This document shows, piece by piece, positions 96 to 16,133 of a stretch of DNA of 35,663 nt (position 1 is the stretch's first letter; the number at the start of each line of letters is the position of its first letter). Position numbers and translations under genes: made by a program. The notes under the pieces are model-generated. The model worked only from the letters and a program-made list of their open reading frames with translations, was not told where the DNA came from and did not search any database. The stretch spans positions 1 through 35,663 of the forward strand of contig CACIVM010000006.1 in assembly GCA_902590115.1 (NCBI GenBank). The letters are read 5' to 3'. The stretch comes from an uncultured Pelagibacteraceae bacterium. Lineage in GTDB: Bacteria > Pseudomonadota > Alphaproteobacteria > Pelagibacterales > Pelagibacteraceae.

Positions 96-97
96 TT

Positions 98-1765: not shown

Positions 1766-2029
1766 TTAATTAGGGGCGTTTAACTCAGATTTAAGTTTTT
1801 TAATAAAAGTAGATAAAATCTTCCTTTCATCCTCATCAAGAATTTTATCTTTTTTGTTTGCTGTTTCGATCTCCTCTTTTATTTTCTCAACTATTTCTTC
1901 TCTGGATTTTTTATCTGTTAAAGACATAATTTTATCCTCATAACCTCTAATGATTTGACCTATTGTTAATTTAAAAACTACAATTATAGCTATTATCACG
2001 ATGATAGTTTTATATAAAAATAACTTCAT
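1766..2029 (-). CDS. Small single-pass membrane protein of unknown function
   Basis: This 87-residue protein has one hydrophobic segment at about residues 4-22. A Lys/Glu-rich tail follows (residues about 32-80) that looks helical and possibly coiled coil, with several acidic residues at DEDE. I do not recognise a named family. It lies 9 nt downstream of the glycosyltransferase gene on the same strand, so the two are probably co-transcribed. A small partner of that membrane enzyme is possible but unproven. The TAA at 1766-1768 directly abuts the convergent START-domain gene. Compact coding, a clean hydrophobic N-terminus and operon placement support it as a real gene. Confidence 0.6.
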   Translation of the reverse strand: MKLFLYKTIIVIIAIIVVFKLTIGQIIRGYEDKIMSLTDKKSREEIVEKIKEEIETANKKDKILDEDERKILSTFIKKLKSELNAPN

Positions 2030-2038
2030 AATTAATAA

Positions 2039-3526
2039 TTACTCCAATCCTTTTTTTTTGTAAATCGAATTTACCGGTATTCCATCAACTTTAATTTCAT
2101 AAAGCAAATAATAGTTATCTAAGATATCTTGACTCGGTTTTTCTGCTTTCCACGAGTAATGTGTGTCTACTAAATAATCAGAATTTTCAAAATTATCCAT
2201 AATATAAATTCTTTCTCGTTGTTTCTTTTTTAAAATCTTTTTGCTCAAACGTAAATCAGAGGTACTTACTGACATAACCTTTATATCGCCATTATCAATA
2301 TTTATTAAAAATTCCAAAGCTTGCTTGTTAGATAATCCCCAATAATCCATTTCAAATTTTTTATTAAAATTCTTACTTGCTAAAATATTAAAATATACAT
2401 TCTGGTATGGATGATTTTTGATCATCCAATACATTGTTGGAAAAATTGAAAGTATTAAAATTATATTTAAAATTTTTTGTTTTTTTGATTTAAAAAATAA
2501 ATTTAATCTATAAATACCAGTTATTGAAATAAGTATAAATAAAGGGTAAGTAAAATATAGATGTCTCCAATCGTTATATCTTAACATTCCAATTTCTACA
2601 AATATTAATACTGGAATTATCCAGCTAAAAAGAAAAAATACATCTTCTAGTTCTTTATCACCTCTCCATAGATCTTTATAAGAGTTGTTTTGATCAATTT
2701 CAAACAATCTTCTAAAAAATCTCAGAGCAATAATAAAAAAACCAAGAATAAAAAAAAGCAAGTAGGGTATTGGGGTACTGATTAAAATCCAAATAATATG
2801 ATAGTGCCATGGAACTTCAGTAATGAAAAAAAATTCTCCTAAATAAAAAACATAAATCTTTAGAAAATGATCTTTTAAAAAATTAAATATTTCAGATATA
2901 CTTAATAATGTATTTTCCCATAATACTGGTGAAAGAATTATTGAAAATATAATTAAAAAAATATAAAAAATCAGAAAATTTATAAGATTGCGAATACTGG
3001 CCTTATCTTGTCTTAGAAAATAAATAATAAAAAAAATTGATGAAAGTAGTGGGAAGATTATTCCTAAAATACGTAAATTTATCATTAAAGAATAAATAAA
3101 AGAAAGTATTATACTATTTAATAGATTATCATTTTTTATAAACTTAAATGTGAATGTAAGGCTGATAATTAATAAAGACATAAATATTATGTCTTTACTA
3201 TTATAAAAACTATTAGCAAAAATCCTAGGACTCAAAATCAAAAATAAACAACCAATTAATGCAAGGGAAACCGAGTTATATTTTTTTTTAATTAATCTAT
3301 AAAAAAAATAAACTGAAGTATAAAATATTGCGAAGGTTGAAAAATGTCTTAACAAAAAATAATTTCTACTATCCTTGATGTTAAACACATACTCTATCAA
3401 TGACATAGGAAAATCAAAAACTATACCTGAGGTTGATATCTCATCTCTTGGATGAGCCTCAGAATTATTTTCAATAATTTTGTTAATTTCAAAAACCAAA
3501 TTATCTAAAGAGAAAAAATTTCCCAC
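2039..3526 (-). CDS. GT-C-fold polytopic membrane glycosyltransferase (GT39/PMT-like), N-terminus frameshifted
   Basis: This stretch encodes 495 residues from a GTG at 3524-3526, with about ten hydrophobic segments and a soluble C-terminal tail after about residue 370. The layout matches lipid-linked-sugar glycosyltransferases of the PMT/GT39 superfamily, which move a sugar from a polyprenyl-phosphate donor to a target at the outer face of the inner membrane. The GTG is probably not the real start. Reading upstream in frame adds about 38 more codons that complete a first membrane segment and the acidic loop DYGISIDED typical of these enzymes. No ATG, GTG or TTG occurs before an in-frame TAG at 3641-3643. 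The substrate is unknown. It is divergent from the gmhA-like gene, which suggests a role in the neighbouring surface-sugar pathway. Confidence 0.72.
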   Translation of the reverse strand: MGNFFSLDNLVFEINKIIENNSEAHPRDEISTSGIVFDFPMSLIEYVFNIKDSRNYFLLRHFSTFAIFYTSVYFFYRLIKKKYNSVSLALIGCLFLILSPRIFANSFYNSKDIIFMSLLIISLTFTFKFIKNDNLLNSIILSFIYSLMINLRILGIIFPLLSSIFFIIYFLRQDKASIRNLINFLIFYIFLIIFSIILSPVLWENTLLSISEIFNFLKDHFLKIYVFYLGEFFFITEVPWHYHIIWILISTPIPYLLFFILGFFIIALRFFRRLFEIDQNNSYKDLWRGDKELEDVFFLFSWIIPVLIFVEIGMLRYNDWRHLYFTYPLFILISITGIYRLNLFFKSKKQKILNIILILSIFPTMYWMIKNHPYQNVYFNILASKNFNKKFEMDYWGLSNKQALEFLINIDNGDIKVMSVSTSDLRLSKKILKKKQRERIYIMDNFENSDYLVDTHYSWKAEKPSQDILDNYYLLYEIKVDGIPVNSIYKKKGLE

Positions 3527-3648
3527 AGTTTCAATTGATAAAAATCCAACGATTCTTAAATTATCCTCATCAATCGAAATTCCATAATCTTCAAACGCCG
3601 CAATACCAATTAAAAAAAAATGATAAAAAAAATAAAAAAACTATACAT
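3527..3648 (-). other. Out-of-frame N-terminal coding segment of the GT-C glycosyltransferase, with homopolymer frameshift
   Basis: On the minus strand an ATG at 3646-3648 begins MYSFFIFFIIFF and then stops at TAA inside a T9 tract (A9 at 3612-3620 on the plus strand). Adding one T there, or in the neighbouring T8 or T7 runs (3625-3632, 3634-3640), carries the frame into LIGIAAFEDYGISIDED and straight on to the GTG at 3526. The repaired protein would be about 536 residues with a normal signal anchor. A sequencing or assembly error, a true mutation, slippage-rescued expression, or phase variation would all look like this. Confidence 0.7.
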
Positions 3649-3766
3649 TTTTCAAGGGTTATATATTTCATATTTTGATAGATTTAGAAAAATTATATTA
3701 TATGTAAAGATATATAAAAGATATAATTATTTATTATTCAATTTTTGTGATATTAATCAAAATTCA
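3649..3766. promoter_or_regulatory. Divergent intergenic region between the GT-C gene and the gmhA-like gene
   Basis: This is 118 nt between the repaired start of the reverse-strand glycosyltransferase and the chosen ATG of the gmhA-like gene. It is almost entirely A/T, with many TATA-like hexamers, so I cannot single out a -10/-35 pair. No strong Shine-Dalgarno is visible for either gene. It must carry the promoters for both transcription units if the genes are expressed. That is inference from gene orientation. Confidence 0.35.
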
Positions 3767-4357
3767 ATGAAAAAAAAAATTAACGATGAAAACTTTGTTA
3801 GAGATTATCTTAACGACTTCTCAATATCGCTTCTTCCTAATAAAGAAATAGTTGATAAAATAATTCAAGTAAAAAATATCTTGCAGAAAACATCAAATCG
3901 TAATGGAAAAGTTTTAATATTTGGCAATGGAGGAAGTGCAGCTATATCAAGCCATGTAAGCATAGATTTAACAAAAAACGCAAAGTTAAGAACGGTAAAT
4001 TTTAATGAAGCTGATCTCATAACATGTTTTTCCAACGATTATGGTTACGAAAGGTGGGTCGAAAAAGCCATAGATTTTTATGGCGATAAAAAAGACTCAT
4101 TAATAATAATTTCGTCAAGCGGTAAATCTCAAAATATGATTAATGCATGCAAAATAGCAAAGAAGAAAAAAATATCTGATATTATAAGTTTTACAGGTCA
4201 TACAAGGAATAGCCCTGTAGCAAATTTATCTACTATAAATTTTTGGGTAGATAGCAAAGCCTATAATTTTATCGAGAATACCCATCAAGTTTGGTTGCTT
4301 ACTATTTGCGATTTGATAATAGGAAAAAGAGAGTATCCTGCTACTGACAAGAAATAA
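3767..4357 (+). CDS. gmhA: GmhA-like sedoheptulose-7-phosphate isomerase (SIS domain)
   Basis: From the ATG at 3767 this is a 196-residue single SIS domain, the length of GmhA. It would isomerise sedoheptulose 7-phosphate to D-glycero-D-manno-heptose 7-phosphate, the first step of ADP- or GDP-heptose synthesis. Sugar-phosphate motifs are GNGGSAAISSH and SSSGKSQNMINA. The frame is open back to 3620, but that stretch gives 49 residues of low-complexity K/Y/I sequence with no SIS homology, so the internal ATG is preferred. The hddA-like kinase follows 12 nt later, and the remaining heptose steps are encoded at 11798-12994. A generic SIS phosphoheptose isomerase acting on a related ketose phosphate remains possible. 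Confidence 0.85.
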   Translation: MKKKINDENFVRDYLNDFSISLLPNKEIVDKIIQVKNILQKTSNRNGKVLIFGNGGSAAISSHVSIDLTKNAKLRTVNFNEADLITCFSNDYGYERWVEKAIDFYGDKKDSLIIISSSGKSQNMINACKIAKKKKISDIISFTGHTRNSPVANLSTINFWVDSKAYNFIENTHQVWLLTICDLIIGKREYPATDKK

Positions 4358-4369
4358 TAAAATTTAATT

Positions 4370-5356
4370 ATGATAATTACAAAAACACCTTATAGAATAT
4401 CTTTCTTTGGTGGGGGAAGTGACTATCCTCAATGGTATAATAAATATAATGGTTTAGTTTTGTCTACAACGATTGATAAGCACATTTATATCTCTTGTAG
4501 ATTTTTACCTAGCTTTTTCAAACATAAATACAGGATCGTATGGTCAAAAATTGAGAATGTTAAAAAGATTAATCAGATAAAACATAAAGCAGTAAGAGGA
4601 TTACTAAATCATTACAAAATCAAAAATGGACTTGAAATACATTACGATGGGGATCTACCTGCTAGAAGTGGTATGGGTTCAAGTTCGACATTTACAGTTG
4701 GTTTGACAAAAGCTTTATTAGAAATAAAAAAACATAAATTATCAAGTTTAAATATAGCTAAAAAGGCGATAGATTTTGAACAAAATATTATGGGCGAAGC
4801 AGTCGGTTCGCAGGACCAAATAGCCGCTTCTTTAGGAGGTTTTAACAAAATAAGTTTTAAAAAAAATAACAAATTTACGGTCAGTAAAATTAAAAAAACA
4901 AAAAGAGTAAAAAAATTAGAAAATAATTTAATTTTAATTTATTCTGGTATTCAAAGAACCGCTCAATATATTGCATCCAGTTATATCCAAAAGCTCACAA
5001 GATCAAAAAAAAAGTATATTGAAAAAATTGTAAAATTTGTGGATGACGGTTTTGATATTATTAATGGAGGTGATCTTGATGATTTTGGTAGACTTCTTCA
5101 CGAGAGTTGGTTGCTAAAAAAAAAATTATCTTCTAATATTACTAACAAAAAGATAAATAATTTATATAATTACGCAATTGAAAACGGTGCTCTTGGCGGT
5201 AAATTGTTGGGTGCAGGAGGCGGAGGTTTCTTATTAATGTATATGAAAAAGAAATACAGGAAAAAATTTTTTAACAACAACAAAAACATTGTAAACGTCC
5301 CTTTAAAATTCTCTGATAAAGGTTCAGAGGTTATATTTAAAAATTTTGAAAAATAA
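4370..5356 (+). CDS. hddA: GHMP kinase, HddA-like D-glycero-D-manno-heptose 7-phosphate kinase
   Basis: This 328-residue GHMP-family sugar kinase would form D-glycero-alpha-D-manno-heptose 1,7-bisphosphate. The N-terminal substrate block is TPYRISFFGGGSDYP. The ATP loop is PARSGMGSSS from residue 97. VGSQDQIAASLGGFN is typical of HddA and its close relatives, and the C-terminal glycine motif is GGKLLGAGGGGF near residue 275. Length is normal. The two flanking genes lie 12 nt upstream and 2 nt downstream, so it belongs to one operon. The family also contains fucose and other sugar kinases; the isomerase neighbour and the HddC-GmhB fusion in the same cluster favour heptose. Confidence 0.87.
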   Translation: MIITKTPYRISFFGGGSDYPQWYNKYNGLVLSTTIDKHIYISCRFLPSFFKHKYRIVWSKIENVKKINQIKHKAVRGLLNHYKIKNGLEIHYDGDLPARSGMGSSSTFTVGLTKALLEIKKHKLSSLNIAKKAIDFEQNIMGEAVGSQDQIAASLGGFNKISFKKNNKFTVSKIKKTKRVKKLENNLILIYSGIQRTAQYIASSYIQKLTRSKKKYIEKIVKFVDDGFDIINGGDLDDFGRLLHESWLLKKKLSSNITNKKINNLYNYAIENGALGGKLLGAGGGGFLLMYMKKKYRKKFFNNNKNIVNVPLKFSDKGSEVIFKNFEK

Positions 5357-5358
5357 AA

Positions 5359-6549
5359 ATGAAACTTAATCATAAATTAATGCATAATAACTTTACTTCC
5401 TCTGACTTCAGTGATGTAAAAAAACTTTTGTCAAAAAAAAATGTAATTCTAACACAATCAAAACAGGTAGAGCTGTTTGAAAAAAAATGGTCCAAATGGC
5501 TAGGTGTAAAATATTCAATATTTGTTAATTCTGGATCAACATCTAATTATCTATCAATAAAGGCATTAAAGTTATTGAAAAATAGTAAAAAAAAAAATGA
5601 AATTATTGTTCCTGCTCTTACATGGATATCTGATATAAGCTCAGTCATTCTAAATCAATTTAAACCAATATTTGTTGATATTAATAAAGAAACACTCTCA
5701 ATGGATTATGAGCAGGTTAAAAGAAAAATTAACAAAAAAACATTAGCTATATTTGTCACACACGCCCAGGGATTTAGTGGTTTAGACTCAAGACTGCTTA
5801 AATTAGTTCAAAAAAGAAAAATTATATTGATAGAAGACGTTTGCGAAAGTCACGGAGCTAAATACAAAAGTAAAAAATTAGGTTCATTTGGATTAATTTC
5901 AAATTTCTCTTTTTACTACGCTCATCACCTAACAACCATTGAAGGCGGAATGATATGTACCAATGATAAACGTTTATATGAAATTTTAAGGATGCTTAGG
6001 TCACACGGGATGCTAAGAGAGGCTAAAGATAAAAAATTTAAAAATAGAATGATAAAAAAATATAAACAGCTATCTCCTCAATTCATTTTTTTGTACCCAA
6101 CATTAAATTTTAGAAATAATGAGATAGGTGCTACTATAGGCTTAAGCCAATTAAAAAAATTAAATCAAAATAATGAAAACAGGACAAAAAATTTTAAATA
6201 TTTTTTAAAAAATATTGACCCAAATAAGTATTGGACTAATTTTGCAGTAAACGGCAGCTGTAATTACGCGTTTCCATTAGTCTTAAAAACTAAAAATTTA
6301 AAAAAAAGAGATTTATTTGAGAAAAAACTTAAATTAGCCAATATAGAATTCAGGAGAGGTAACGCAGGGGGAGGAAATCAAATTAGACAACCTTATCTTC
6401 AAGATTACGTAAAAAATATAAACCTCAAAAACTTTAAAAATGTCGAGCACATACACAGTTTTGGATACTATATCGGGAACTATCCGGCATTAAAAAAAGA
6501 TAAGATATTTAAAATTTGTAAATATTTGAATTCTATAGACTTTTTATAA
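5359..6549 (+). CDS. DegT/StrS-fold PLP enzyme with His in place of Lys: ColD-like 3-dehydrase
   Basis: This 396-residue fold-type I PLP protein belongs to the DegT/DnrJ/EryC1/StrS family. The position that forms the internal aldimine is normally Lys (pattern FSFxxxK). Here it is His189 in FSFYYAHHLTTIEGG. The Asp that contacts the pyridine nitrogen is D160 (IEDVCESHGA). A His at this site is known from ColD (His188, GDP-4-keto-6-deoxymannose 3-dehydrase) and E1/RfbH-type dehydrases, which remove the C3 hydroxyl rather than transaminate. Length is close to ColD, and the E1-type [2Fe-2S] cysteine set is not seen. It should therefore make a 4-keto-3-deoxy sugar nucleotide, probably GDP-linked. 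The substrate (hexose or heptose) is unknown. The 4,6-dehydratase that would feed it starts 1 nt downstream. Confidence 0.82.
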   Translation: MKLNHKLMHNNFTSSDFSDVKKLLSKKNVILTQSKQVELFEKKWSKWLGVKYSIFVNSGSTSNYLSIKALKLLKNSKKKNEIIVPALTWISDISSVILNQFKPIFVDINKETLSMDYEQVKRKINKKTLAIFVTHAQGFSGLDSRLLKLVQKRKIILIEDVCESHGAKYKSKKLGSFGLISNFSFYYAHHLTTIEGGMICTNDKRLYEILRMLRSHGMLREAKDKKFKNRMIKKYKQLSPQFIFLYPTLNFRNNEIGATIGLSQLKKLNQNNENRTKNFKYFLKNIDPNKYWTNFAVNGSCNYAFPLVLKTKNLKKRDLFEKKLKLANIEFRRGNAGGGNQIRQPYLQDYVKNINLKNFKNVEHIHSFGYYIGNYPALKKDKIFKICKYLNSIDFL

Positions 6550-6550
6550 A

Positions 6551-7528
6551 ATGAAACACATTAAAAGAAATTTTAAAAGATGTTTAATTACAGGTATAGC
6601 TGGTTCAGGAGGAAGTTATTTAGCAGATTTTATTCTTAAAAAAGATAAAAAGATAAAGATCTATGGGTTTTATAGATCTGATAGATACAAAAAGATTCTT
6701 CAGAAGAAATTTGGAAAAAAAAGGCTATTTTTTTATAAAATTGATCTTAACAATTTTAAAAAAGTAAAAAAATTATTAAAAATATTAAAACCTGATTTAA
6801 TTTTTAATTTGGCCTCTGATGCTGATGTTAGAAAATCCTTTGATATTCCAAGGAAGTTTATCAATAATAATCATAATTCTACATTGAATCTTTTAGAAGC
6901 GATTAGAGTAAACAAACTTAAATCTTTATTCATTCATTGTAGCACTTCTGAAGTTTATGGAATTGTTGCGAAGAAAGAGACTCCAATCAAAGAAAGTCAA
7001 AATATGAGACCGGTTAGTCCATATGCGGTTTCTAAATCATTTCAAGATCTTTCAGCACAACTTTATCATCAAATATACGGACTTAATATAATCATTACAA
7101 GAATGTTTACATACAATAATCCTAGGCGCTTAAATCTATTTCAATCGTCTTTTGCATCTCAAATTGCAAAGATTGAAAAAGGTAAACAAAAAATTTTATT
7201 TCATGGTAACTTAAATAGCATTAGAACTTATTTAGACTTAAACGATGCTATCAATGCTTATTGGCTTACTGCAAAAAAAGGAAGAGTCGGTGAGATTTAT
7301 AATATTGGTGGAAATAAATCAATTAAAGTTGGAGATGTTCTTAAAAAATTATTAAAATTTTCCGATAAAAAAATCATATATAAAATAGATAAAAAATTAT
7401 TAAGAACAAAGGATGTAACTTTACAAATTCCATCTACCACAAAATTTAGAAACCATACAAAATGGAAATCTAAGACTAGCTTAGATAATTCGCTATTAAA
7501 CCTTCTAAATGAATTTAGAAATAGTTAA
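6551..7528 (+). CDS. Gmd-like GDP-sugar 4,6-dehydratase (extended SDR)
   Basis: This 325-residue extended short-chain dehydrogenase starts with an NAD(P) loop, TGIAGSGGSYLADF, shaped like that of GDP-mannose 4,6-dehydratase (TGxxGxxGSYLA). The catalytic set has the dehydratase form: STSEVYG, with the Thr-x-Glu pair that distinguishes 4,6-dehydratases from epimerases, then SPYAVSKSFQDL with the Tyr-x3-Lys pair. The C-terminal RTYLDLNDAINAYW block also matches the Gmd group. It should convert a GDP-sugar to the 4-keto-6-deoxy form. Because the cluster encodes GDP-heptose synthesis, GDP-heptose (as for WcbK/DmhA) is as likely a substrate as GDP-mannose. A 52-nt gap precedes the next gene. Confidence 0.8.
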   Translation: MKHIKRNFKRCLITGIAGSGGSYLADFILKKDKKIKIYGFYRSDRYKKILQKKFGKKRLFFYKIDLNNFKKVKKLLKILKPDLIFNLASDADVRKSFDIPRKFINNNHNSTLNLLEAIRVNKLKSLFIHCSTSEVYGIVAKKETPIKESQNMRPVSPYAVSKSFQDLSAQLYHQIYGLNIIITRMFTYNNPRRLNLFQSSFASQIAKIEKGKQKILFHGNLNSIRTYLDLNDAINAYWLTAKKGRVGEIYNIGGNKSIKVGDVLKKLLKFSDKKIIYKIDKKLLRTKDVTLQIPSTTKFRNHTKWKSKTSLDNSLLNLLNEFRNS

Positions 7529-7580
7529 TTTTTAATATAAAAGAACTAGAATTTTTTATTAAATAATATAAAAATGTAAA

Positions 7581-9146
7581 ATGTCTATAAATAAAACCGA
7601 TTGTGTGTTTTTGGTCGTTTCTAGCTCAAAAAAAACGTATCAAAATCTCTCAGAAACATATTCAGCGATAGAGCCTCCAACTTGGGCCTTGCTATTAGCA
7701 CAATCAACAAGAGCAGCAGGATTTAATGTAAAAATCTTGGATGCTAATGCTGAGAGACTTAACGAAGAGGAAATCTTTGTAAGATTAAAAGAAATAAACC
7801 CTAGATTAATATGTCTTGTTACTTATGGCCAGAACGTTAACACAGGAACAACTATTATGAGTGGAGCGACACATATTTCTAATTTTTTAAAAGAAAATAA
7901 AATTAGTCAAAAAATATGTTTTATAGGATCACATGTCCAAGCATTACCTAAAGAGACTTTAGAGAAAGAAAAAAGTATAGACTTTGTTTTTACTAACGAG
8001 GGCGTTTATGCCATACAAAATGTTCTTAAATTAAAAGATTTTGATAATGCAAATTTAAGAGATATCAGAGGAATAGCTTTTAGAGAGTCTCCTGACAAAA
8101 TAAAAATCAACCCTCCTGAAAAAGTAGTACCAAATGATAGAATGGATATTGATTTACCAGGTTATGCTTGGGACTTATTACCATATAAAAATAGACCCCT
8201 AGATTTATATAGAGCTCCATTGTGGCACGCAGAATATGATTTTGAGAAAAGATCGCCATATGCAAGTTTACAAACAAGTTTAGGTTGTCAGTTCAAGTGT
8301 AGTTTTTGCATGATTAATTTAATCAATAGAAATGATGACGAAGAAGTAGGAGTTGCATCTAATTATAGCAAAATGAGATTTTGGTCGCCAGACTTTATTA
8401 TAAAAGAATTTGATAAGCTTATTAAAATGGGCGTAAGAACTATAAGAATTGTTGATGAAATGTTTTTATTAAATCCAAAATATTATAAACCTTTATGTGA
8501 AAAGCTTGCTGAGAGAAACAAAGACGACTCCTTAAGAATGTGGAGCTATAGTAGAATAGACACTGTAAAAAGTCCGGAAATATTAAAATTGGTTAGGAGG
8601 GCAGGAATAAAATGGCTATGTCTTGGTATTGAAAGTGGAGATAAAAAAGTTCGACTAGAAGTTGCTAAAGGAAAGTTTGAAGATGTAGATGTAAGAGAAG
8701 TTATTAAAAGAGTTCATGATGCGGACATTAATATTATGGCTAATTACATGTATGGGTTACCAGGGGATGATGAAAAAACTATTGAAAAAACATTTAATCT
8801 AAGTTTAGAACTATGCACAGCAGGCTGGAATACTTACCCAGCAATAGCTTTACCAGGCAGTTTGCTATACAAACAGGCTCGGGAGTCAAATTTACAATTA
8901 CCAGATACCTACGAAGGATTTTCATTTCACGCTTATGAAACAGTGCCATTTCCCACAGAAAAATTAACTCCAGGACAAGTTTTAAAGTTCAGAGATGATA
9001 ATTTTATAAAATATCATACTAACAAAAATTTTTTAAAGCTTATCGAAGAAAAATTTGGTAAAGAAGCCTCTGAAAATATAGTTCAAATGGCAAAAGTAAA
9101 ATTAAAGAGAAAACTTATAGAAAGAGAAAATCTTGATACAAAATAA
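7581..9146 (+). CDS. Class B (B12-binding) radical SAM enzyme
   Basis: This 521-residue protein has an N-terminal Rossmann-like domain of the cobalamin-binding type (about residues 20-150) and a radical SAM core beginning at C236-x3-C240-x2-C243 (CQFKCSFC). The SAM-binding and barrel strands follow (LCLGIESGD, NYMYGLPGDDEKTIE). The classical DxHxxG cobalamin ligand motif is not obvious, as is common in this class. Members perform C- or P-methylations and other radical rearrangements. Placed among sugar-nucleotide genes, a C-methylation or skeletal change of a sugar is plausible. Substrate and reaction cannot be read from sequence. The end overlaps the transketolase start by 14 nt if TTG 9133 is used. 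Confidence 0.83.
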   Translation: MSINKTDCVFLVVSSSKKTYQNLSETYSAIEPPTWALLLAQSTRAAGFNVKILDANAERLNEEEIFVRLKEINPRLICLVTYGQNVNTGTTIMSGATHISNFLKENKISQKICFIGSHVQALPKETLEKEKSIDFVFTNEGVYAIQNVLKLKDFDNANLRDIRGIAFRESPDKIKINPPEKVVPNDRMDIDLPGYAWDLLPYKNRPLDLYRAPLWHAEYDFEKRSPYASLQTSLGCQFKCSFCMINLINRNDDEEVGVASNYSKMRFWSPDFIIKEFDKLIKMGVRTIRIVDEMFLLNPKYYKPLCEKLAERNKDDSLRMWSYSRIDTVKSPEILKLVRRAGIKWLCLGIESGDKKVRLEVAKGKFEDVDVREVIKRVHDADINIMANYMYGLPGDDEKTIEKTFNLSLELCTAGWNTYPAIALPGSLLYKQARESNLQLPDTYEGFSFHAYETVPFPTEKLTPGQVLKFRDDNFIKYHTNKNFLKLIEEKFGKEASENIVQMAKVKLKRKLIERENLDTK

Positions 9147-9936
9147 TTTGGAGGAAATAGCTAAAAAATATAGAAGGGAAATGTTCGAAAAATTTCTTTT
9201 AACAAAACACGGCCATCCAGGCTCAGTTTTTTCAATGATGGAAATCGCCGTCTCTCTTTTTCATGGTGGCTTTGTAAGATTTGACAACAAAAAAAAATCT
9301 TTTAATGACAAAGTATTGATAAGCAAAGGTCATGCTACATCAACCTTATATCCGATTTTAAGAGACTTCGGTGTAATTTCTAAGAGAGATTGGGATAATT
9401 GGGGAATAAAAAAATCTAACCTTAGAATATTTGGAAATACATCAATTCCAGGAATAGATATCACTTCAGGATCTTTAGGTCATTGTATAGGCTCAGGGGC
9501 TGGTATGGCAGTCAGTTACTTAAATAATAACCAAGATAAAAAAGTCTATGTTGTAATAAGTGAAGGAGAACTTTACGAGGGTTCAACATGGGAAGCACTG
9601 CTTTTTGCCAAACATAGAAATCTTAAAAATTTAACAATTATTATAGATATTAATAACTTAATTATATTAGGAAATACGTCCGACTGTTTAAAACTAGATC
9701 CAATCAAATCTAAAATAGAGGGTCTTGGGATAAACGCTAAAGAAGTAGACGGGCATAACATAGATAATTTGGTTTCATCTTTAAAAGATTGTGACGAGTC
9801 TAATGATGTAAATTGTATATTGGCAAAAACTGTGAAAGGCAAAGGCTCATCAATAATGGAAAATAAGCAGAACTGGCATTATTGGAGCCCTATGACGAAA
9901 GAGCAAATTGAAATTACCAAAAAAGATTTAGAATAA
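9133..9936 (+). CDS. Transketolase-family N-terminal (ThDP-binding) subunit
   Basis: This 267-residue protein matches only the N-terminal thiamine-diphosphate domain of transketolase. It shows KHGHPGSVFSMMEI (substrate/ThDP helix), SKGHATSTLYP, TSGSLGHCIGSGAGMA, and the cofactor motif. In place of GDG that motif reads SEGELYEGSTWEA, ending near IIIDINN, so the metal-binding Asp is replaced by Glu. The TTG at 9133 is chosen because LEEIAKKYRREMFEK, upstream of the first ATG (9181), matches the family's first helix. A TTG at 9148 is an alternative. The C-terminal half is the next gene, sharing a TAATG junction. Either it supplies sedoheptulose 7-phosphate for heptose synthesis, or it transfers a two-carbon unit to a keto sugar. 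Confidence 0.82.
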   Translation: MIQNNLEEIAKKYRREMFEKFLLTKHGHPGSVFSMMEIAVSLFHGGFVRFDNKKKSFNDKVLISKGHATSTLYPILRDFGVISKRDWDNWGIKKSNLRIFGNTSIPGIDITSGSLGHCIGSGAGMAVSYLNNNQDKKVYVVISEGELYEGSTWEALLFAKHRNLKNLTIIIDINNLIILGNTSDCLKLDPIKSKIEGLGINAKEVDGHNIDNLVSSLKDCDESNDVNCILAKTVKGKGSSIMENKQNWHYWSPMTKEQIEITKKDLE

Positions 9937-10853
9937 TGCTTCAAAGAGATATTTTTATTAAAGAGATAACAAAAAAACTTAAAAATGATAAAAAAATTTA
10001 CTTTTTGAGCGCTGATTTTGGAGCAGCGGCTTTAGATGAACTTAGGAAAAAATATCCTAAAAATTTTATACATTGCGGAATATCAGAACAGGCTATGCTC
10101 GATATTGCAACAGGATTGGCATTAGAAAAAAATAAAGTTTTTGTATATGCAATGGCACCATTTTTATCATTAAGAGCGATAGAGCAAGCAAAATGCGGAC
10201 CTGGTTTAATGAAACTCCCAATCTGTATGATCTCAGTTGGTATTGGTTTAGGATATGCCGATGCTGGACCTACACACTATGCAAATGAGGATTTTGCTTG
10301 CTTCAGAGCTATTGTTGGATCCTCCATTTATACTCCCTCTGATAATACTACAACTCGCTTCATTGCTAATGAGATGCTTAATAAAACAAAATTTTCTTAC
10401 GTGAGGTTAGATAGAGATTATTGTGATGATCTTCAACCAAATTTAATTAAAAAAGACTATGCTAATGGTTTTAAGCTATACGGCAAATGTGATAGAAAAA
10501 AAATAGGAATAATAAGTCACGGTAAAATTTTCCATAAATGTATGAATATTTTTAAAAAAAATACTAATAAATATGTTTTAATTAATCTTTTTAGAGCGAA
10601 ACCATTTCCAGATAAGGTTGTGAATATTGTTAAAAAGATAAACAGATTTATGATTGTGGATGAACAGACACCATCAGGTGGATTAAGCTCGTGTGTATTT
10701 GAAGGATTTAGTAAAAATAAATTTTATCCAAAGATAATTTCTAAGTCATTACCAGATCAATATATTTTTGATAACGGAGGTAGAAATTATTTATTAAAAA
10801 AATATGGATTAGGTGAGATAGACATACTTAAATCTCTTAAAAAATTAAAATAA
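9936..10853 (+). CDS. Transketolase-family C-terminal (PYR plus C) subunit
   Basis: This 305-residue partner of the preceding gene carries the pyrimidine-binding domain of transketolase/DXS-type enzymes. Its conserved activating Glu sits in HCGISEQAMLDIATGLA, with SEQ where classical transketolase has REH. GPTHYANEDFACFRAIVG and IYTPSD follow, then a Rossmann-like C-terminal domain with MIVDEQTPSGGL. The two genes overlap by one base (TAATG), as expected for subunits made in equal amounts. Split transketolases are common in archaea and in some sugar clusters. The altered active-site wording compared with housekeeping transketolase suggests a specialised acceptor or donor, which is inference. 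Confidence 0.84.
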   Translation: MLQRDIFIKEITKKLKNDKKIYFLSADFGAAALDELRKKYPKNFIHCGISEQAMLDIATGLALEKNKVFVYAMAPFLSLRAIEQAKCGPGLMKLPICMISVGIGLGYADAGPTHYANEDFACFRAIVGSSIYTPSDNTTTRFIANEMLNKTKFSYVRLDRDYCDDLQPNLIKKDYANGFKLYGKCDRKKIGIISHGKIFHKCMNIFKKNTNKYVLINLFRAKPFPDKVVNIVKKINRFMIVDEQTPSGGLSSCVFEGFSKNKFYPKIISKSLPDQYIFDNGGRNYLLKKYGLGEIDILKSLKKLK

Positions 10854-10859
10854 TAATTG

Positions 10860-11801
10860 ATGAAAAATATCAGAATATTAGTAACTGGTGGAGCAGGATA
10901 TCTAGGTTCAATTCTTTGCACAGAATTAGTCAAAAGAGGATATCAAATCACAGTTATTGATTTATTAAAATACAAAAAAAATTCTCTAAAGCATTTATAT
11001 AAGAAAAAAAATTTTAAATTAGTTAAAGCGGACATTAGAGACAATCAAATTATGAAAAAACTTATTAAAGATAATGACTATATTATTCCGCTTGCGGCAC
11101 TGGTTGGCGCACCTTTATGTGAAAAGAATAAAAAAGAGGCCATATCAGTAAATCTCTCCTCGATTAAATCTTTAGTAAAAATGGCAGATAAAAAAAAAAG
11201 AATTATTTATTTAACTACTAACTCTGGTTATGGGATAGGTGCAAAAAATAAATTTTGTGATGAGAGAAGTCCTTTAAGACCCATTTCTTTATATGGTAGA
11301 ACCAAATGTGATGCGGAAAAGGTCATAAGAAAACATAAAAACTCAATTTGTTTTAGATTAGCAACTGTATTTGGCAAAAGTTACAGAATGAGAACAGACC
11401 TATTAGTAAACAATTTTGTTTTTAATGCATTGAAAAGTAAAAAATTAAAACTATTCGAGCCCAATTTTCGAAGAAATTTTATCTATATTAAAGATGTAAT
11501 ATCAGCAATAATTTTTTCTATTAAAAATTTTGAAAAACTTAAATCCAACGTTTATAATCTTGGTTTATCAAGTGCGAATATAAGTAAACTGACGCTAGCT
11601 ACAAGAATAAAAAAACAATTAAAATTCTTAAAAATAGAGGTAATCAAAAATAAATCCGATCCAGATAAAAGAGATTACTTTGTTAGCAATAAAAAAATAG
11701 AAAAAAAAGGTTTTAAAGCAAAAAAAACATTGGAGTTTGGTATAAAGGAATTAGTGGTTTTCTTTAAAAGAAATAAAAAAAGAATAATAAATAATTATTA
11801 G
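10860..11801 (+). CDS. NAD(P)-dependent extended SDR, sugar-nucleotide reductase or epimerase
   Basis: From ATG 10860 this is a 313-residue extended SDR. The nucleotide loop is TGGAGYLGSILC and the catalytic segment is TTNSGYG followed by SLYGRTKCDAE (Tyr-x3-Lys). It lacks the Thr-Asp/Glu pair of 4,6-dehydratases, so it is more likely a 4-keto reductase or an epimerase. The FRLATVFG and NFIYIKDV blocks are typical of sugar-nucleotide members. A TTG codon directly before the ATG could extend the product by one residue, but ATG is preferred. It follows the transketolase pair by 6 nt and is the last plus-strand gene of the cluster, fitting a final reduction step. Its stop overlaps the convergent HddC-GmhB gene by 4 nt. 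Confidence 0.8.
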   Translation: MKNIRILVTGGAGYLGSILCTELVKRGYQITVIDLLKYKKNSLKHLYKKKNFKLVKADIRDNQIMKKLIKDNDYIIPLAALVGAPLCEKNKKEAISVNLSSIKSLVKMADKKKRIIYLTTNSGYGIGAKNKFCDERSPLRPISLYGRTKCDAEKVIRKHKNSICFRLATVFGKSYRMRTDLLVNNFVFNALKSKKLKLFEPNFRRNFIYIKDVISAIIFSIKNFEKLKSNVYNLGLSSANISKLTLATRIKKQLKFLKIEVIKNKSDPDKRDYFVSNKKIEKKGFKAKKTLEFGIKELVVFFKRNKKRIINNY

Positions 11802-12994
11802 TTTAATTTTCGATATATTTTCCTAAATTGCTTTAAGAGGTCGTCATTATCGTATTCAAAATACAAGTTACTTTTTAAAGCAGCAAGCTTATCAGTTTTT
11901 TTATCACCAATCATAAAACTCTTATTATGGTCTATATCCCAATTTTTAAAAATTTCTTTTATCATTAAATTTCCTGGTTTACGATATTGAGAATTTATTT
12001 TATATTTTTTTATCTTAGAACTAGGATGGAATGGAGAAAATTTTACATCGTCCAAAAATACATTATAATTTGATAATTTACTTTTTAAATAAATATGCAA
12101 TTTTTCAAAATCTGATAACTTGAATTTTTTTTTGGCTATACCTGCTTGATTTGTTACAATAAAAATATAATATCCTTTATTACTAATAAATTTCAAAGCT
12201 TTTAAAACGTTATTTTTAATTTTAAACCTATTAATTTTATAAACATATCCATAATCGTGATTGATTACCCCATCGCGATCCAGAAAAACTGCTGGTTTTG
12301 TAAAATTATTTTTTAATAAATGTGGAGAAATTTTTAAACTTTTAGAAGAACCTATGTCTAAAAAAAAATTTTTAAAGACTATACCGTTTAATTTTTTTTC
12401 AGTTATTAATCTTGGAATAATTTCATCCTCAAGACTACAAAAATTATTTGGAATATGATTAATTATTGTTTTATTAAAAAAATATATTCCTCCGTTTATC
12501 AATTTTCTAATTTTTGAAAAAAAAACTAAATTCTTTTTAACACCTAAATTATTAAGCTTAATATTATTTGCAAAACTTTTATTTTTCTTAATTAAAGCCA
12601 CTGTACCTAAACTTTTATTTTTTTTGGATTTTATTAATGTTAAAGGATTAATCTTGAAAATTGTATCGCCATTAACTAAAACAAAATCATTTAAATTTTT
12701 TACCCTTTTCAATGAATTTAAAGCGCCTCCAGTTCCCATAGGCCTTTTTTCGTTTAAACATTTTATTGGTATAAAATTAAACTTTTTATTATGAAATTTT
12801 TGAAATATTATTTGGTAACGATAGCCTGTCAGTATGTATATGTTGTTGAAATTGTATTTTCCAAAAAACTGAATAATATAGCTTAAAAAGTACTTATTAT
12901 TGAATTTTAACATGGGTTTAGGCTTTCCTACTAAAAAATTTTTTATTCGAGATCCTTTACCCCCAGCAAGAATTACTAAATCTATTTTTTTCAT
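11798..12994 (-). CDS. HddC-GmhB fusion: heptose-1-phosphate nucleotidyltransferase plus HAD heptose bisphosphatase
   Basis: This 398-residue two-domain protein combines two heptose steps. Residues 1 to about 225 are a sugar-1-phosphate nucleotidyltransferase (LAGGKGSRIKNF, KPKPML, GTGGAL, NGD with D110) closest in feel to HddC guanylyltransferases. Residues about 233-398 are a HAD phosphatase of the GmhB/histidinol-phosphatase type (FLDRDGVINHDYGY with D239 and D241, VTNQAGIAKKKF, YRKPG, MIGDKKTDK). It should dephosphorylate D-glycero-D-manno-heptose 1,7-bisphosphate at C7 and then make GDP-heptose. The zinc loop of canonical GmhB is degenerate: SPFHP near 320-324 lacks the Cys, and NSQYRKP replaces CxCRKP. 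It faces the rest of the cluster. Confidence 0.85.
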   Translation of the reverse strand: MKKIDLVILAGGKGSRIKNFLVGKPKPMLKFNNKYFLSYIIQFFGKYNFNNIYILTGYRYQIIFQKFHNKKFNFIPIKCLNEKRPMGTGGALNSLKRVKNLNDFVLVNGDTIFKINPLTLIKSKKNKSLGTVALIKKNKSFANNIKLNNLGVKKNLVFFSKIRKLINGGIYFFNKTIINHIPNNFCSLEDEIIPRLITEKKLNGIVFKNFFLDIGSSKSLKISPHLLKNNFTKPAVFLDRDGVINHDYGYVYKINRFKIKNNVLKALKFISNKGYYIFIVTNQAGIAKKKFKLSDFEKLHIYLKSKLSNYNVFLDDVKFSPFHPSSKIKKYKINSQYRKPGNLMIKEIFKNWDIDHNKSFMIGDKKTDKLAALKSNLYFEYDNDDLLKQFRKIYRKLN

Positions 12995-13045
12995 TAATTA
13001 TTACAATACTTACAATTTTATTAAAATTAAGTTAATATATAATTT
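12995..13045. promoter_or_regulatory. Short divergent region between the HddC-GmhB fusion and the GT2 gene
   Basis: This 51-nt, nearly pure A/T spacer separates divergent genes and must hold or overlap their promoters. TATAAT occurs at 13038-13043 but is only 2 nt from the GT2 ATG, too close to serve as that gene's -10 unless the transcript starts inside the gene. No clear Shine-Dalgarno is seen. Confidence 0.3.
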
Positions 13046-13984
13046 ATGAAATTAATTTCATTAGTTTTTTCATTTAGAAATGAAGAAAAAAACCTTAAAG
13101 AGCTGGTTGAAAGAGTTACAAAATCTCTACAAAAAATAAACAATTATAGATATGAGCTTATTTTTGTTAATGATTCTTCAGAAGACAATTCCGAAAAAAT
13201 ATTAATCGATCTTCAGAAATCATTCCCAATTAAAATAATTAACATGACTAGAAACTTTGGTATAGCACCGTGTGTACTCGCAGGTTTTAGGCACAGCAAA
13301 GGAGATTGTATAATTTATATGGACTCTGATTTACAAGATCCGCCAGAGTTAATACCAGAATTAATAAAGAAATACGAAGAGGGAAATGATATTGTTCATA
13401 CAAAAAGAACAAAGAGATTAGGGGAAAGTAAGATTAAACTGTTGTTAACAAGATTAGCGTATTTAGTGATACATTATTTTTCTGATATAAATCTACCAAT
13501 CGAAGCTGGTGACTATAAATTAATTTCAAGGCGCGCGATGGACAATATCCTAAAACAAAAAGAATTTCGTCCTTACATTCGTGGGCTTTCAGTATGGGTA
13601 GGTTATAAACAATCTTATGTAAACTATGTTAGAGAGGCGAGAGGGTCAGGTAAATCTAAATTCACTTTACTTTCTAAAGGACCAGTTAATGAATTCATAA
13701 CCGGTGTTACTGCTTACTCTTTAAAGCCTCTTTACCTAGGAGTATTGTTAGGTTTTCTATCTCTAATTTTTTCGATAATGTTGATAATCTATGCTTTGTA
13801 TTTAAAATTTAATAATTTTGCTGTTCCAGGTTCAGCAAGTATAATTATTACAGTATCATTTTTTTCAGGGATTATACTTTTTACTTTAGGAATAATAGGA
13901 ATCTATCTTGCAAGAATTTTTGAACAAACAACAGGAAGAGACAGTTACGTTATTAAAGATGTAAAAGATAATATTTCTAAATAA
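13046..13984 (+). CDS. GT2 polyprenyl-phosphate glycosyltransferase (GtrB/DPM1/ArnC-like)
   Basis: This 312-residue family 2 glycosyltransferase has the catalytic domain at residues about 1-225 and two C-terminal membrane helices at about 228-252 and 265-290. Motifs are VFSFRNEEKNL (nucleotide site), VNDSSEDNS, the metal-binding YMDSDLQDPPE, and GSGKSKFTL before the membrane helices. This architecture belongs to enzymes that load a sugar from a nucleotide donor onto undecaprenyl phosphate. The lipid-linked sugar then becomes the donor for a GT-C glycosyltransferase at the outer face of the membrane, and one such gene lies at 2039-3526 in the same block. The donor sugar is unknown. Its 3' end overlaps the convergent pncC by 8 nt. 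Confidence 0.87.
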   Translation: MKLISLVFSFRNEEKNLKELVERVTKSLQKINNYRYELIFVNDSSEDNSEKILIDLQKSFPIKIINMTRNFGIAPCVLAGFRHSKGDCIIYMDSDLQDPPELIPELIKKYEEGNDIVHTKRTKRLGESKIKLLLTRLAYLVIHYFSDINLPIEAGDYKLISRRAMDNILKQKEFRPYIRGLSVWVGYKQSYVNYVREARGSGKSKFTLLSKGPVNEFITGVTAYSLKPLYLGVLLGFLSLIFSIMLIIYALYLKFNNFAVPGSASIIITVSFFSGIILFTLGIIGIYLARIFEQTTGRDSYVIKDVKDNISK

Positions 13985-14444
13985 TATCTTTTAAAATTTT
14001 AAGTGCTTTTTGTGTGGTTTGTCTTTGTATATATCTCCTACCTTTATTTTTAATCTTTATTTTGAATACTTTAACGATTTTCTTTTTTTTAATACCTATA
14101 TACACCAATCCAATAGGTTTATTTTTGGTCCCACCTTTTGGTCCAGCAATTCCAGTTACAGAAATACAAATTTTAGATTTGCTAATTTTGCTAAGGTTAT
14201 TTACCATAAGTAAACAGCACTCAGCACTTACGGCCCCGTATTTCTTCAAAATTTTATGAGGAACTTTTAATATCTTTATTTTCGACTCATTAGAATAGGT
14301 AACTAAACCAAATGTGAATATCTTTGAAGAACCACTTATTGAGGTAAAGGCACTAGATAACATTCCCCCAGTACAAGACTCAGCAATAGCTATCTTTATT
14401 TTTTTTTTTTTAAGAAGAAAAATTATTTTTTCATTTAAATTCAT
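13977..14444 (-). CDS. pncC: CinA C-terminal-domain protein, nicotinamide-nucleotide amidohydrolase
   Basis: This 155-residue stand-alone CinA C-terminal domain hydrolyses NMN to nicotinate mononucleotide and ammonia, recycling NMN formed by DNA ligase and other reactions. Diagnostic motifs are AESCTGGMLSSAF near residue 20, FGLVTYSNESKI and GIAGPKGGTKNKPIGLVYI. The length is that of the PncC-only form; the N-terminal CinA domain is absent, as is common in alphaproteobacteria. It is last in the ispDF-pgpA-pncC operon and overlaps pgpA by 4 nt (ATGA). In many alphaproteobacteria this operon directly follows lipA and the COQ10-like gene, from which it is separated here by the 12-kb sugar block. 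Confidence 0.92.
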   Translation of the reverse strand: MNLNEKIIFLLKKKKIKIAIAESCTGGMLSSAFTSISGSSKIFTFGLVTYSNESKIKILKVPHKILKKYGAVSAECCLLMVNNLSKISKSKICISVTGIAGPKGGTKNKPIGLVYIGIKKKKIVKVFKIKIKNKGRRYIQRQTTQKALKILKDII

Positions 14445-14947
14445 ATTATAAAGTAAGATTTTATTATCATAAAAATAATTAAAGTTAATACAACATATAT
14501 TCCAGCGAAAATATCATCAAAGACTACTCCAAAACTATTTTTGAATTTGTTATCTATTATGTTAATCGGGAAAGGTTTTTTAATATCAAAAAACCTAAAT
14601 AAAATAAAAATATAAAAATAAATTAATAATGACTCACTTAAATTTTTTTCAGATTGATGCGCTATTTCATAAAAGTAAATCGGAATAGATTGACCAATTA
14701 CCTCGTCAATAACAACCTCTTTGGGATCTTTGTTTTTATTTTTTTTTATATAATTTGAAATTACAAGCAAGGAATAAAAAAAAATAGCTAAAAGCAGAAC
14801 TAAAATTAAAATATGAGATACATTTAATATATAAAAGAGGCTGAAAAGAAATATTGTAGTTATTAATGACGCGATAGTTCCTGGAGCGTACCTAATAGTT
14901 CCTATTCCTAAAAAAGTAACAAATAAATAATTGAAATTTTTAATCAT
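14441..14947 (-). CDS. pgpA: Phosphatidylglycerophosphatase A
   Basis: From the ATG at 14945-14947 this is a 168-residue integral membrane phosphatase. It removes the phosphate from phosphatidylglycerophosphate to give phosphatidylglycerol. Family motifs are FLGIGTIRYAPGTIASL at the N-terminus, VIDEVIGQSIPI in the middle and FRFFDIKKPFP near residue 120, with about four membrane segments. The frame stays open to 14980, but the additional 11 residues are not family-like, and the internal ATG gives the expected start and an 8-nt overlap with ispDF. It overlaps pncC by 4 nt. Confidence 0.9.
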   Translation of the reverse strand: MIKNFNYLFVTFLGIGTIRYAPGTIASLITTIFLFSLFYILNVSHILILVLLLAIFFYSLLVISNYIKKNKNKDPKEVVIDEVIGQSIPIYFYEIAHQSEKNLSESLLIYFYIFILFRFFDIKKPFPINIIDNKFKNSFGVVFDDIFAGIYVVLTLIIFMIIKSYFII

Positions 14948-16085
14948 AACTAAGAACTGTGGAAACAACTTCACATGCAATCGCTTTTTCTTTACCTATA
15001 ATTCCTAATTTTTCAGTGGATTTACCTTTTATATTAATCTGATTATTATTTATGTTACAAATTTTACAGATCAATTTTTCAATTTTTTTTTGATATTTTT
15101 TAATTTTTGGTGTTTGAGTTATAATATTTACATCTATGTTATTTATAAAATATCCTAAATTGTTTAATTTTATAATAACTTCATTTAAAAGCTTTGTAGA
15201 TCTTATATCTTTAAATTTTTTGTTTTTATCTGGGAATAGTCTTCCAATATCACCTAATTTTGTAGCTCCAAGTAAGGAGTCTATAATCGCATGTAAGACT
15301 GGGTCGCCATCGGAATGACCTAGAGTTCCTATTTTTGAATTAATTTTAATTCCACCTAAATAAAGTTTTCTTTTCGGTACCAATCTATGAATATCAAATC
15401 CTATTCCAGTTCTCATTTTCGATTTTAAAATTTGTTTTAAATTATCAAAATCTTGCTTAACTGTAATTTTGAAATTATTTTTTTCTCCACTTACAAACTT
15501 TACTCCATTTAAATCTAAAAATAATGATAAATCATCGTCTTTGTATTTATTTTTCCTGTTTTTGTGCAACCCATAAATTTCATGCAATTTAAAACATTGC
15601 GGTGTTTGAGTTAAAAAAAATTCGTTTCTATTTTTTCCAACTATGTATTCATTTAAACTTGAGTCATATTTTTGTTTAATTGCATCTTGAACTTCAATTA
15701 TTGGAATAACCGCCTTAGCATTTTTCATATTTTTTATTATTAATTTTAGTAGTTTTATTGAAAAATTTGGCCTTGCCGCATCATGAATAAGAACATTTTT
15801 AATTTTTTTTGACTTAACAAGTTTTTTCAACGCTATTTGTGTTGACTCTTGCCTGGATTTACCACCCTGTATTTTATCAATATTTTTTAGTTTTAAATTC
15901 ATAAGTTTTTTTTTATCTTTTTTGTTGAATACAATAAGGATTTTTTTAATTTCTTTTAAATTGTTAGCCTTATTTACTATGATCTCAATTAATGATTTTC
16001 CGCCAATTTTTTGGTAAGGTTTAGACCTATTTGAACTAAACCTATGACTTATGCCTCCAGCTAAAATAATAAAACAAAAACTCAT
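14940..16085 (-). CDS. ispDF: Bifunctional IspD/IspF, MEP isoprenoid pathway
   Basis: This 381-residue fusion is typical of alphaproteobacteria. Residues 1 to about 220 are IspD, which makes CDP-methylerythritol: AGGISHRFSSNRSKPYQKIG contains the CTP-binding loop, and HDAARPNFS is conserved. Residues from about 224 are IspF, which forms 2-C-methyl-D-erythritol 2,4-cyclodiphosphate. It begins MRTGIGFDIHRL with the metal-binding Asp-x-His, followed by LGHSDGDPVLHAIIDSLLGA and LFPD. Both domains look intact. It is first in the operon with pgpA and pncC and diverges from ntrY across 48 nt. Confidence 0.97.
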   Translation of the reverse strand: MSFCFIILAGGISHRFSSNRSKPYQKIGGKSLIEIIVNKANNLKEIKKILIVFNKKDKKKLMNLKLKNIDKIQGGKSRQESTQIALKKLVKSKKIKNVLIHDAARPNFSIKLLKLIIKNMKNAKAVIPIIEVQDAIKQKYDSSLNEYIVGKNRNEFFLTQTPQCFKLHEIYGLHKNRKNKYKDDDLSLFLDLNGVKFVSGEKNNFKITVKQDFDNLKQILKSKMRTGIGFDIHRLVPKRKLYLGGIKINSKIGTLGHSDGDPVLHAIIDSLLGATKLGDIGRLFPDKNKKFKDIRSTKLLNEVIIKLNNLGYFINNIDVNIITQTPKIKKYQKKIEKLICKICNINNNQINIKGKSTEKLGIIGKEKAIACEVVSTVLSYD

Positions 16086-16133
16086 TGTATTAACTTATAT
16101 AATATTTATATAAATATTTAACGAATAAATAGA
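16086..16133. promoter_or_regulatory. Divergent promoter region between ispDF and ntrY
   Basis: This 48-nt A/T-rich spacer separates two divergent operons. It contains TATAAT at 16098-16103, about 31 nt before the ntrY ATG, a workable -10 position. No convincing -35 is seen and the surrounding TATA-rich sequence could match by chance. Promoter presence is inferred from the divergent layout; the exact element is uncertain. Confidence 0.35.

Follow-up and report, generated by a model that had tools for sequence, protein, structure and literature searches.

A gene cassette in a SAR11 bacterium carries a widely distributed module predicted to build a carbon-branched sugar from GDP-heptose

We analysed a window of 35,663 bases (G+C content about 23-37%), contig 6 of a 732,702-base, 64% complete genome from a Pelagibacteraceae (SAR11) bacterium. 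The window contains an inserted cassette of approximately 12.2 kb whose product is probably an undescribed carbon-branched, seven-carbon-based surface sugar. Five parts of the cassette make up a module: the kinase HddA, a Cj1427-type enzyme predicted to oxidise C4 of guanosine diphosphate (GDP)-heptose, a ColD-type dehydrase, a two-part thiamine diphosphate (ThDP) enzyme and a radical S-adenosylmethionine (SAM) enzyme with an AprD4-like fold. The module spans SAR11, cyanobacteria, Planctomycetota, Verrucomicrobiota, Nitrospinota and others. Its recurrence in many unrelated phyla argues that we are dealing with a testable new sugar pathway and not with a chance cluster.

Results

A predicted C4-oxidase and 3-dehydrase pair

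The ColD-like protein found its best match in the Protein Data Bank (PDB) in ColD itself (2gms, 190 bits) and scored 127 bits against the cytidine diphosphate (CDP)-sugar 3-dehydrase structure 3bcx. A histidine stands in place of the usual pyridoxal 5'-phosphate (PLP) lysine in FYYAHHLTTIEGG, and the HH pair was invariant in 12 aligned sequences (the window and 11 relatives). The protein lacks the CxCxC cysteine motif of a [2Fe-2S] cluster, a feature that sets it apart from E1/RfbH. Both the histidine and the rank of ColD among the matches bear out the His-type 3-dehydrase proposed in a first-pass annotation of this DNA, and support 3-deoxygenation.

The same annotation had cast the second short-chain dehydrogenase/reductase (SDR) of the cassette as the reductase closing the route. 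Alignment pointed elsewhere: 6vo6 matched this protein with 298 bits (48% identity over 303 residues) as against 82 bits for the runner-up, and the catalytic Tyr-x3-Lys of SDRs is present (YGRTK aligned to YGIDK). The PDB record of 6vo6 reads only 'putative sugar-nucleotide epimerase/dehydratase'; we take the structure to be that of Campylobacter jejuni Cj1427. To judge from this match, the second SDR would be a C4 oxidase of the Cj1427 type rather than a final reductase. The 4-keto sugar would therefore need no 4,6-dehydratase, and 6-deoxygenation would be dispensable. Cj1427 oxidises GDP-D-glycero-manno-heptose at C4 and, when combined in vitro with a C3-dehydratase, yielded GDP-D-glycero-3-deoxy-4-keto-heptose (m/z 616.08); GDP-3-deoxy-heptoses were named among the novel products (PMC10680097). 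The window and its relatives thus appear to encode, in nature, the enzyme pair that was put together in vitro in that study.

Co-conservation of the module across phyla

A family search recovered 13 other loci with a close relative of the ColD-like protein (57-68% identity), nearly all of them with HddA and the C4-dehydrogenase alongside. Scanning named genomes with a ColD alignment yielded 80 loci, distributed among Pelagibacteraceae, SAR116, Magnetococcales, Desulfobacterales, cyanobacteria, Planctomycetota, Verrucomicrobiota, Nitrospinota, Omnitrophota, Elusimicrobia, Bdellovibrionota and others. The locus profiles were seeded from genes of the window and its neighbours; the loci share ancestry, and the counts are descriptive. 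Among the 57 homologous loci of at least 15 kb, 53 had HddA and 53 a ThDP enzyme; 48 had the C4-dehydrogenase and 45 the radical SAM gene, and the ThDP and radical SAM genes occurred together in 44. In 20 Pelagibacteraceae neighbourhoods around other DegT genes, which served as controls, the corresponding figures were 1 for HddA, 1 for ThDP, 2 for the C4-dehydrogenase and 0 for radical SAM (Fisher p of 3e-13, 3e-13, 4e-9 and 2e-10, respectively). One of these controls, L152, holds HddA, E1 and the C4-dehydrogenase and looks like a diverged member of the module. Outside Pelagibacteraceae, 34 of 39 loci of at least 10 kb carried a ThDP enzyme, 27 the radical SAM gene and 24 both. Since the same enzyme set recurs across phyla, its assembly goes beyond chance; the tailoring genes were found co-conserved with the heptose genes rather than scattered, so that one refuting condition set by the first-pass annotation did not come about.

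An annotated E1-type module accompanied by a phospholipid-carrier glycosyltransferase lies on plasmid pDMC1 of Solidesulfovibrio magneticus RS-1; a NUDIX gene is found within it. Nodosilinea nodulosa PCC 7104 is a second carrier available in culture. A plasmid search with ColD at a strict limit gave no match. Clustering for extra conserved families returned, besides the known genes, mainly antisense shadow open reading frames (ORFs) in GC-rich loci and unrelated neighbours, and a literature search found no description of the module. Locus L136 (G456), in a complete 8.0 Mb alphaproteobacterial genome, contains radical SAM, HddA, both transketolase subunits, ColD, GmhA, C4-dehydrogenase and SDR genes. 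Locus L110, titled 'Bordetella parapertussis', belongs to a metagenome bin and its title is probably wrong.

Interchangeable ThDP enzymes around one core

The ThDP enzyme of the window is a split transketolase-like protein. We take R359, S386, H469 and R528 of yeast transketolase, whose numbering is used here, to bind the sugar phosphate, and Glu418 and His481 to be catalytic. In the C-terminal subunits of the core transketolases, His469 is replaced by Gly in 25 of 25 sequences, S386 is lost in 24 and D477 in 23; the alignment shows E418 and H481 retained in all 25 and in the window. At the four binding positions the window reads R, A, G, R. A separate, full-length canonical transketolase of the host (C1) has all examined residues intact. 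As read from sequence, these losses argue against a sugar-phosphate role and stop short of proving branching.

Round the same core, the 80 loci carry a split transketolase (24), an E1 alpha/beta pair (32), a mini-split pair (19) or an enzyme of the acetolactate-synthase/YerE type (6), and a quick ColD tree requires at least 22 switches between types. According to a 2025 review, ThDP enzymes of three classes branch keto sugars: YerE-like enzymes, alphaKADH2 (E1 alpha/beta) and split-gene transketolases. Its examples of split-gene transketolases all come from Streptomyces and are unproven (PMC12247030). All three classes recur round the module core. Because known or proposed branching classes interchange round one core, and 53 of the 57 loci carry a ThDP enzyme, the earlier suggestion that this enzyme works on a GDP-heptose-derived keto sugar is strengthened. 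Two Pelagibacteraceae loci that have the transketolase and lack the radical SAM gene hold an aldo-keto reductase; in the paulomycin pathway, a C4 branch ketone is reduced by an enzyme of the aldo-keto reductase class (PMC4753412).

The mini-split pair (approximately 200 and 178 residues, E1-like and Transket_pyr-like, with no C-terminal domain; for example L034:6431-7573) lies directly upstream of HddA in 19 of the 80 loci and could represent yet another class of ThDP enzymes that branch sugars. In four Pelagibacteraceae loci (L034:1469-7573, L072, L074 and L098) three ThDP enzymes, of the YerE/acetolactate-synthase, E1 and mini-split types, surround one heptose core together with a radical SAM gene, which suggests several carbon additions. 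The SEG sequence that replaces the GDG motif in the window (Table 1) is also found in the close relatives L056, L065 and L075.

The radical SAM and Gmd-like proteins

The CxxxCxxC cysteines of the radical SAM protein are residues 236, 240 and 243, and a Pfam B12-binding domain was detected with 42 bits. Its predicted structure (predicted local distance difference test, pLDDT, 92.7) ranked AprD4 first by fold (Z 29.8; 421 residues aligned, root-mean-square deviation 3.4), followed by MgmA (26.6), CysS (25.8) and OxsB (25.4); B12 radical SAM proteins other than AprD4 gave Z values of 21-27. AprD4, with which identity is just 18%, belongs to the radical SAM superfamily and dehydrates a sugar diol (PMC5461906). 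The 64 radical SAM proteins of the module constitute one family. A relative adjoins a kinase and a NUDIX hydrolase on plasmid unnamed5 of Azospirillum ramasamyi (L165, L166). Use of cobalamin by the host is doubtful, since the B12 methionine synthase domain was found in none of 60 Pelagibacteraceae genomes and matches to FecCD-type importers of the ATP-binding cassette (ABC) class were weak there (18-31 bits). With AprD4 as the nearest fold, the C-methyl group predicted in the first-pass annotation looks weak; a dehydration or oxidation would be roughly twice as likely as a methylation.

The Gmd-like SDR matched Rmd (2pk3) with 180 bits, DmhA (7us5) with 173 bits and Gmd with 103 bits, and contains both T-S-E and Tyr-x3-Lys. 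By sequence it lies equally near to a reductase (Rmd) and to a heptose 4,6-dehydratase (DmhA), and its gene appears to be accessory. Orthologues (46-65% identity) were found in 8 ColD-core loci, two of which (L042 and L107) come from one genome, and in control L152; none of the scored orthologue loci has the radical SAM gene. Mutual exclusion of the two genes is only a hint: the uncorrected Fisher p is 4e-5, from a table in which the window, which has both, was entered as radical SAM without Gmd, and a tree-corrected sign test was not significant. Gene order in the window equals that of L056 (GmhA, HddA, ColD, radical SAM, the N- and C-terminal transketolase subunits, second SDR, HddC/GmhB) with the Gmd-like gene added, so this gene looks like an add-on to the module. 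The '3,6-dideoxy' character formerly ascribed to the product hinges solely on it and is poorly sustained, the gene being missing from most homologous loci and Rmd being as near to its protein as DmhA. Formation of 3,6-dideoxy heptoses by DmhA and a ColD-like enzyme is already known in Campylobacter (PMC10440746).

GDP-heptose genes and limits of the cassette

Every gene named in the first-pass annotation was found in its place as an intact ORF, and the domains for all four steps to GDP-heptose (GmhA, HddA, HddC and GmhB) were detected, in support of that route. For GmhA the gene was confirmed and its limits need a comment: the start given previously is an internal methionine (Met-50 of the ORF spanning 3620-4357), which is probably the true start. 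The fused protein matches structures of HddC (6jq8, 5xhw) and GmhB (2gmw); the nearest solved relatives of its guanylyltransferase half are HddC and then mannose-1-phosphate guanylyltransferases.

The extent assigned to the cluster (3767-12994) proved too short, as a PMT_2-type protein and a PgfS/ArnC-like glycosyltransferase of family 2 (GT2) also belong to it (Table 1). The island is seated between coq10 (1322-1765) and cinA (13977-14444). In 10 of 10 genomes of the same genus that were examined, this slot has no island: the order DivIC-LipA-Coq10 is followed by about 310-350 bp with a small membrane-protein ORF, then by CinA-PgpA-IspDF-NtrY-NtrX. Because the whole block fills a slot that is closed in all these loci, it is one inserted cassette. 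The ORFs of the cassette are all intact and tightly packed. The small membrane-protein ORF typical of the slot is absent from that of the window; a short minus-strand ORF (about 88 residues, membrane-like start) lies at 1766-2038, between coq10 and the PMT_2 gene. Rfam models gave no match in positions 1-17000. The PgfS/ArnC-type GT2 was above threshold in 23 of 80 module loci. The PMT_2 protein was not found in the 80 loci, its tie to the module being one of position.

Table 1. Features of the cassette in the 35,663-base window
Feature	Position	Strand	Basis
Whole cassette	1766-13976		comparison of the coq10-cinA slot with 10 same-genus loci
PMT_2-type (ArnT-like) membrane glycosyltransferase, candidate final transferase	2039-3526	-	Pfam PF13231, 27.6 bits
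GmhA, sedoheptulose 7-phosphate isomerase	3767-4357 (ORF opens at 3620)	+	SIS_2; TIGR00441, 76.6 bits
HddA-like heptose 7-phosphate kinase, GHMP family	4370-5356	+	best NCBIfam match HddA, 147 bits (cut-off 600)
ColD-like PLP 3-dehydrase	5359-6549	+	ColD 2gms, 190 bits; catalytic His replaces Lys
Gmd/Rmd/DmhA-like SDR, accessory 4,6-dehydratase or C4/branch ketone reductase	6551-7528	+	2pk3, 7us5
Radical SAM enzyme with B12-type domain, AprD4-like fold	7581-9146	+	CxxxCxxC; structure model; AprD4 Z 29.8
Split transketolase-like ThDP enzyme, N-terminal subunit	9133-9936	+	split transketolase 6yak, 141 bits; motif SEG for GDG
Split transketolase-like ThDP enzyme, C-terminal subunit	9936-10853	+	6yaj, 70 bits; catalytic Glu retained, substrate-phosphate residues lost
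Cj1427-like GDP-heptose C4-dehydrogenase (second SDR)	10857-11801	+	6vo6, 298 bits
HddC-GmhB fusion, heptose 1-phosphate guanylyltransferase and heptose bisphosphate phosphatase	11798-12994	-	6jq8/5xhw, 2gmw; NCBIfam
PgfS/ArnC-type GT2, candidate polyprenyl-phosphate sugar synthase	13046-13984	+	PgfS 225 bits, ArnC 129 bits

Further along the window (22081-31636), after Ntr/Trk genes, comes what looks like an ordinary uptake cluster of the glycerol type, with a gene similar to glycerol 3-phosphate dehydrogenase, one for an FGGY kinase and those of an ABC transporter accompanied by a DUF2160 protein.

Discussion

Proposed pathway

The balance of the evidence tips modestly towards an island that makes a single activated branched heptose, loaded for transfer to the cell surface. 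By homology, the Cj1427-like SDR would oxidise C4 of GDP-heptose and the ColD-like enzyme would remove the C3 hydroxyl, giving the GDP-3-deoxy-4-keto-heptose that the Campylobacter enzyme types produced in vitro. The split transketolase-like enzyme would then transfer a short carbonyl unit, most likely of two carbons, onto the C4 ketone, creating a tertiary alcohol with a keto branch. The radical SAM enzyme may alter the sugar further, perhaps at C6/C7 and most likely by a radical dehydration or oxidation in the manner of AprD4; the Gmd/Rmd-like SDR could reduce the branch ketone or remove the C6 hydroxyl. The GT2 probably loads the sugar, of about nine carbons as predicted here, onto polyprenyl phosphate, and the PMT_2-type protein may move it to a surface glycan, a weak assignment made by position.

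Several observations weigh against this scheme. HddA, HddC and GmhA all score under the curated equivalog cut-offs. The loci being related by descent, the evidence is weaker than the Fisher p values suggest. The substrate-residue losses are shared by split transketolases from outside the module and are hence not specific to branching, and the ThDP motif of the window reads SEG for GDG, with Asn at yeast His103; given these two replacements, the donor and even the activity of this transketolase seem uncertain. What the radical SAM enzyme does, and to which target, is guessed from its fold, and the window is the only locus examined that holds the Gmd-like and radical SAM genes together.

The last point could mean that the island is a hybrid serving two sugars, or is partly decayed, with the Gmd-like gene belonging to another product. 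The two genes are never otherwise found together in the loci examined, and the window differs from the L056 order by just this gene; with every ORF intact and closely packed, we nonetheless regard a hybrid or decayed island as very improbable. In the route drawn by the first-pass annotation, the Gmd-like gene is instead central: its product makes GDP-6-deoxy-4-keto-heptose, ColD converts this to the 3,6-dideoxy-4-keto sugar, the ThDP enzyme adds the branch, reduction by the second SDR follows, and a methyl group comes from the B12 radical SAM enzyme. Such a route would fit the closeness of DmhA, the position of the gene between those of ColD and the radical SAM enzyme, the occurrence in L110 of a Gmd-like gene with no detected C4-dehydrogenase, and the proven pairing of a 4,6-dehydratase with a ColD-like enzyme in Campylobacter (PMC10440746). 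It is unlikely all the same, as the second SDR is of the C4-oxidase type and no reductase, most module loci do without the Gmd-like gene, the reductase Rmd matches equally well, and B12 methylation is doubtful in the host.

Other alternatives concern the ThDP enzyme. If the radical SAM enzyme turned the C6-C7 diol into a C7 aldehyde, the split transketolase could extend the chain there instead of branching it at C4. Aldehydes are the normal acceptors of transketolases, the radical SAM protein is AprD4-like in fold, and the two genes go together in 44 of the 57 loci. Yet some loci (such as L045, L057, L094 and L102) have the ThDP enzyme and the core without radical SAM, leaving C4 as the sole carbonyl, and the partner ThDP classes branch ketones (PMC12247030), which makes chain extension quite unlikely. 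The simpler reading, also raised by the earlier annotation, is that the transketolase merely supplies sedoheptulose 7-phosphate, the precursor of the heptose in whose operon it is encoded. This we rejected as extremely improbable: the host has its full-length enzyme elsewhere, the module transketolases have lost sugar-phosphate-binding residues, and at other loci an E1-type, YerE-type or mini-split ThDP enzyme takes their place, the first two of which are not expected to make sedoheptulose 7-phosphate.

As a more speculative extension of the C4-branching scheme, the module might serve bacteria generally for making higher sugars that are carbocyclic or ring-fused, in the way of caryose or bradyrhizose. 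The ThDP enzyme would add two carbons at C4 of GDP-3-deoxy-4-keto-heptose, the radical SAM enzyme would oxidise or activate C6/C7, and the branch would close onto C7. We consider this improbable. Caryose is a 4,8-cyclo-3,9-dideoxy-nonose (PMC9671505); bradyrhizose has ten carbons and fused rings, and no genes were known for it before a cluster of eleven was put forward (PMC4743980). Bradyrhizose was considered as a proven product and rejected: L136 has the full module, but its genome lacks a photosynthetic reaction centre and so is not the photosynthetic Bradyrhizobium of that study.

Relation to known systems

What appears new is the joining of GDP-heptose modification to ThDP branching, in a widely distributed module. 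From this module one would expect abundant environmental bacteria to bear a class of branched higher sugars; the attachment of phages and grazing may be governed by the sugars on their surface. The module would also carry sugar branching by split transketolases beyond Streptomyces, the home of all reviewed examples, and makes an unproven branching reaction testable with existing Campylobacter-type substrates.

One close parallel is the GDP-heptose modification of C. jejuni, with its GDP-D-glycero-manno-heptose base, Cj1427-type C4 oxidation and ColD-type C3 dehydration (the HS:5 C3-dehydratase). In the studies consulted, however, the C4-oxidase and C3-dehydratase were combined only in vitro (PMC10680097); C. 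jejuni also employs epimerases and C4-reductases, and neither a ThDP nor a radical SAM enzyme is described there. Cj1427 itself is defined by C4 oxidation with 2-oxoglutarate recycling of NADH (reduced nicotinamide adenine dinucleotide); the SDR of the window is likened to it by sequence. Yersiniose A shares a deoxy-keto sugar nucleotide and ThDP branching at C4, which is predicted here. YerE, however, is a single-chain, decarboxylase-type ThDP enzyme acting on a 6-deoxy CDP-hexose (CDP-3,6-dideoxy-4-keto-glucose), whereas the window pairs GDP-heptose with a split transketolase. For miharamycin and amipurimycin the proposal is that a split transketolase attaches a hydroxyacetyl unit to a keto sugar; these are Streptomyces nucleoside antibiotics and the reaction is unproven (PMC12247030), in contrast to the surface-glycan-type cluster found here in many phyla. 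The two-subunit E1-type enzymes that replace the transketolase in related loci resemble alphaKADH2 (AviB1/B2 and Pau11/Pau12 type), which work with pyruvate and on other sugar nucleotides; such an E1-type pair is absent from the window itself. AprD4, the apramycin 1,2-diol dehydratase, is closest in fold to the radical SAM protein over the full length, but it acts on an aminoglycoside and works with a reductase partner, and no AprD3-like partner was identified here. Finally, the skeleton of caryose, from Pseudomonas (Burkholderia) caryophylli, can be read as that of a 3-deoxy heptose bearing two carbons at C4; caryose differs in being carbocyclic, and the likeness is one of skeleton only.

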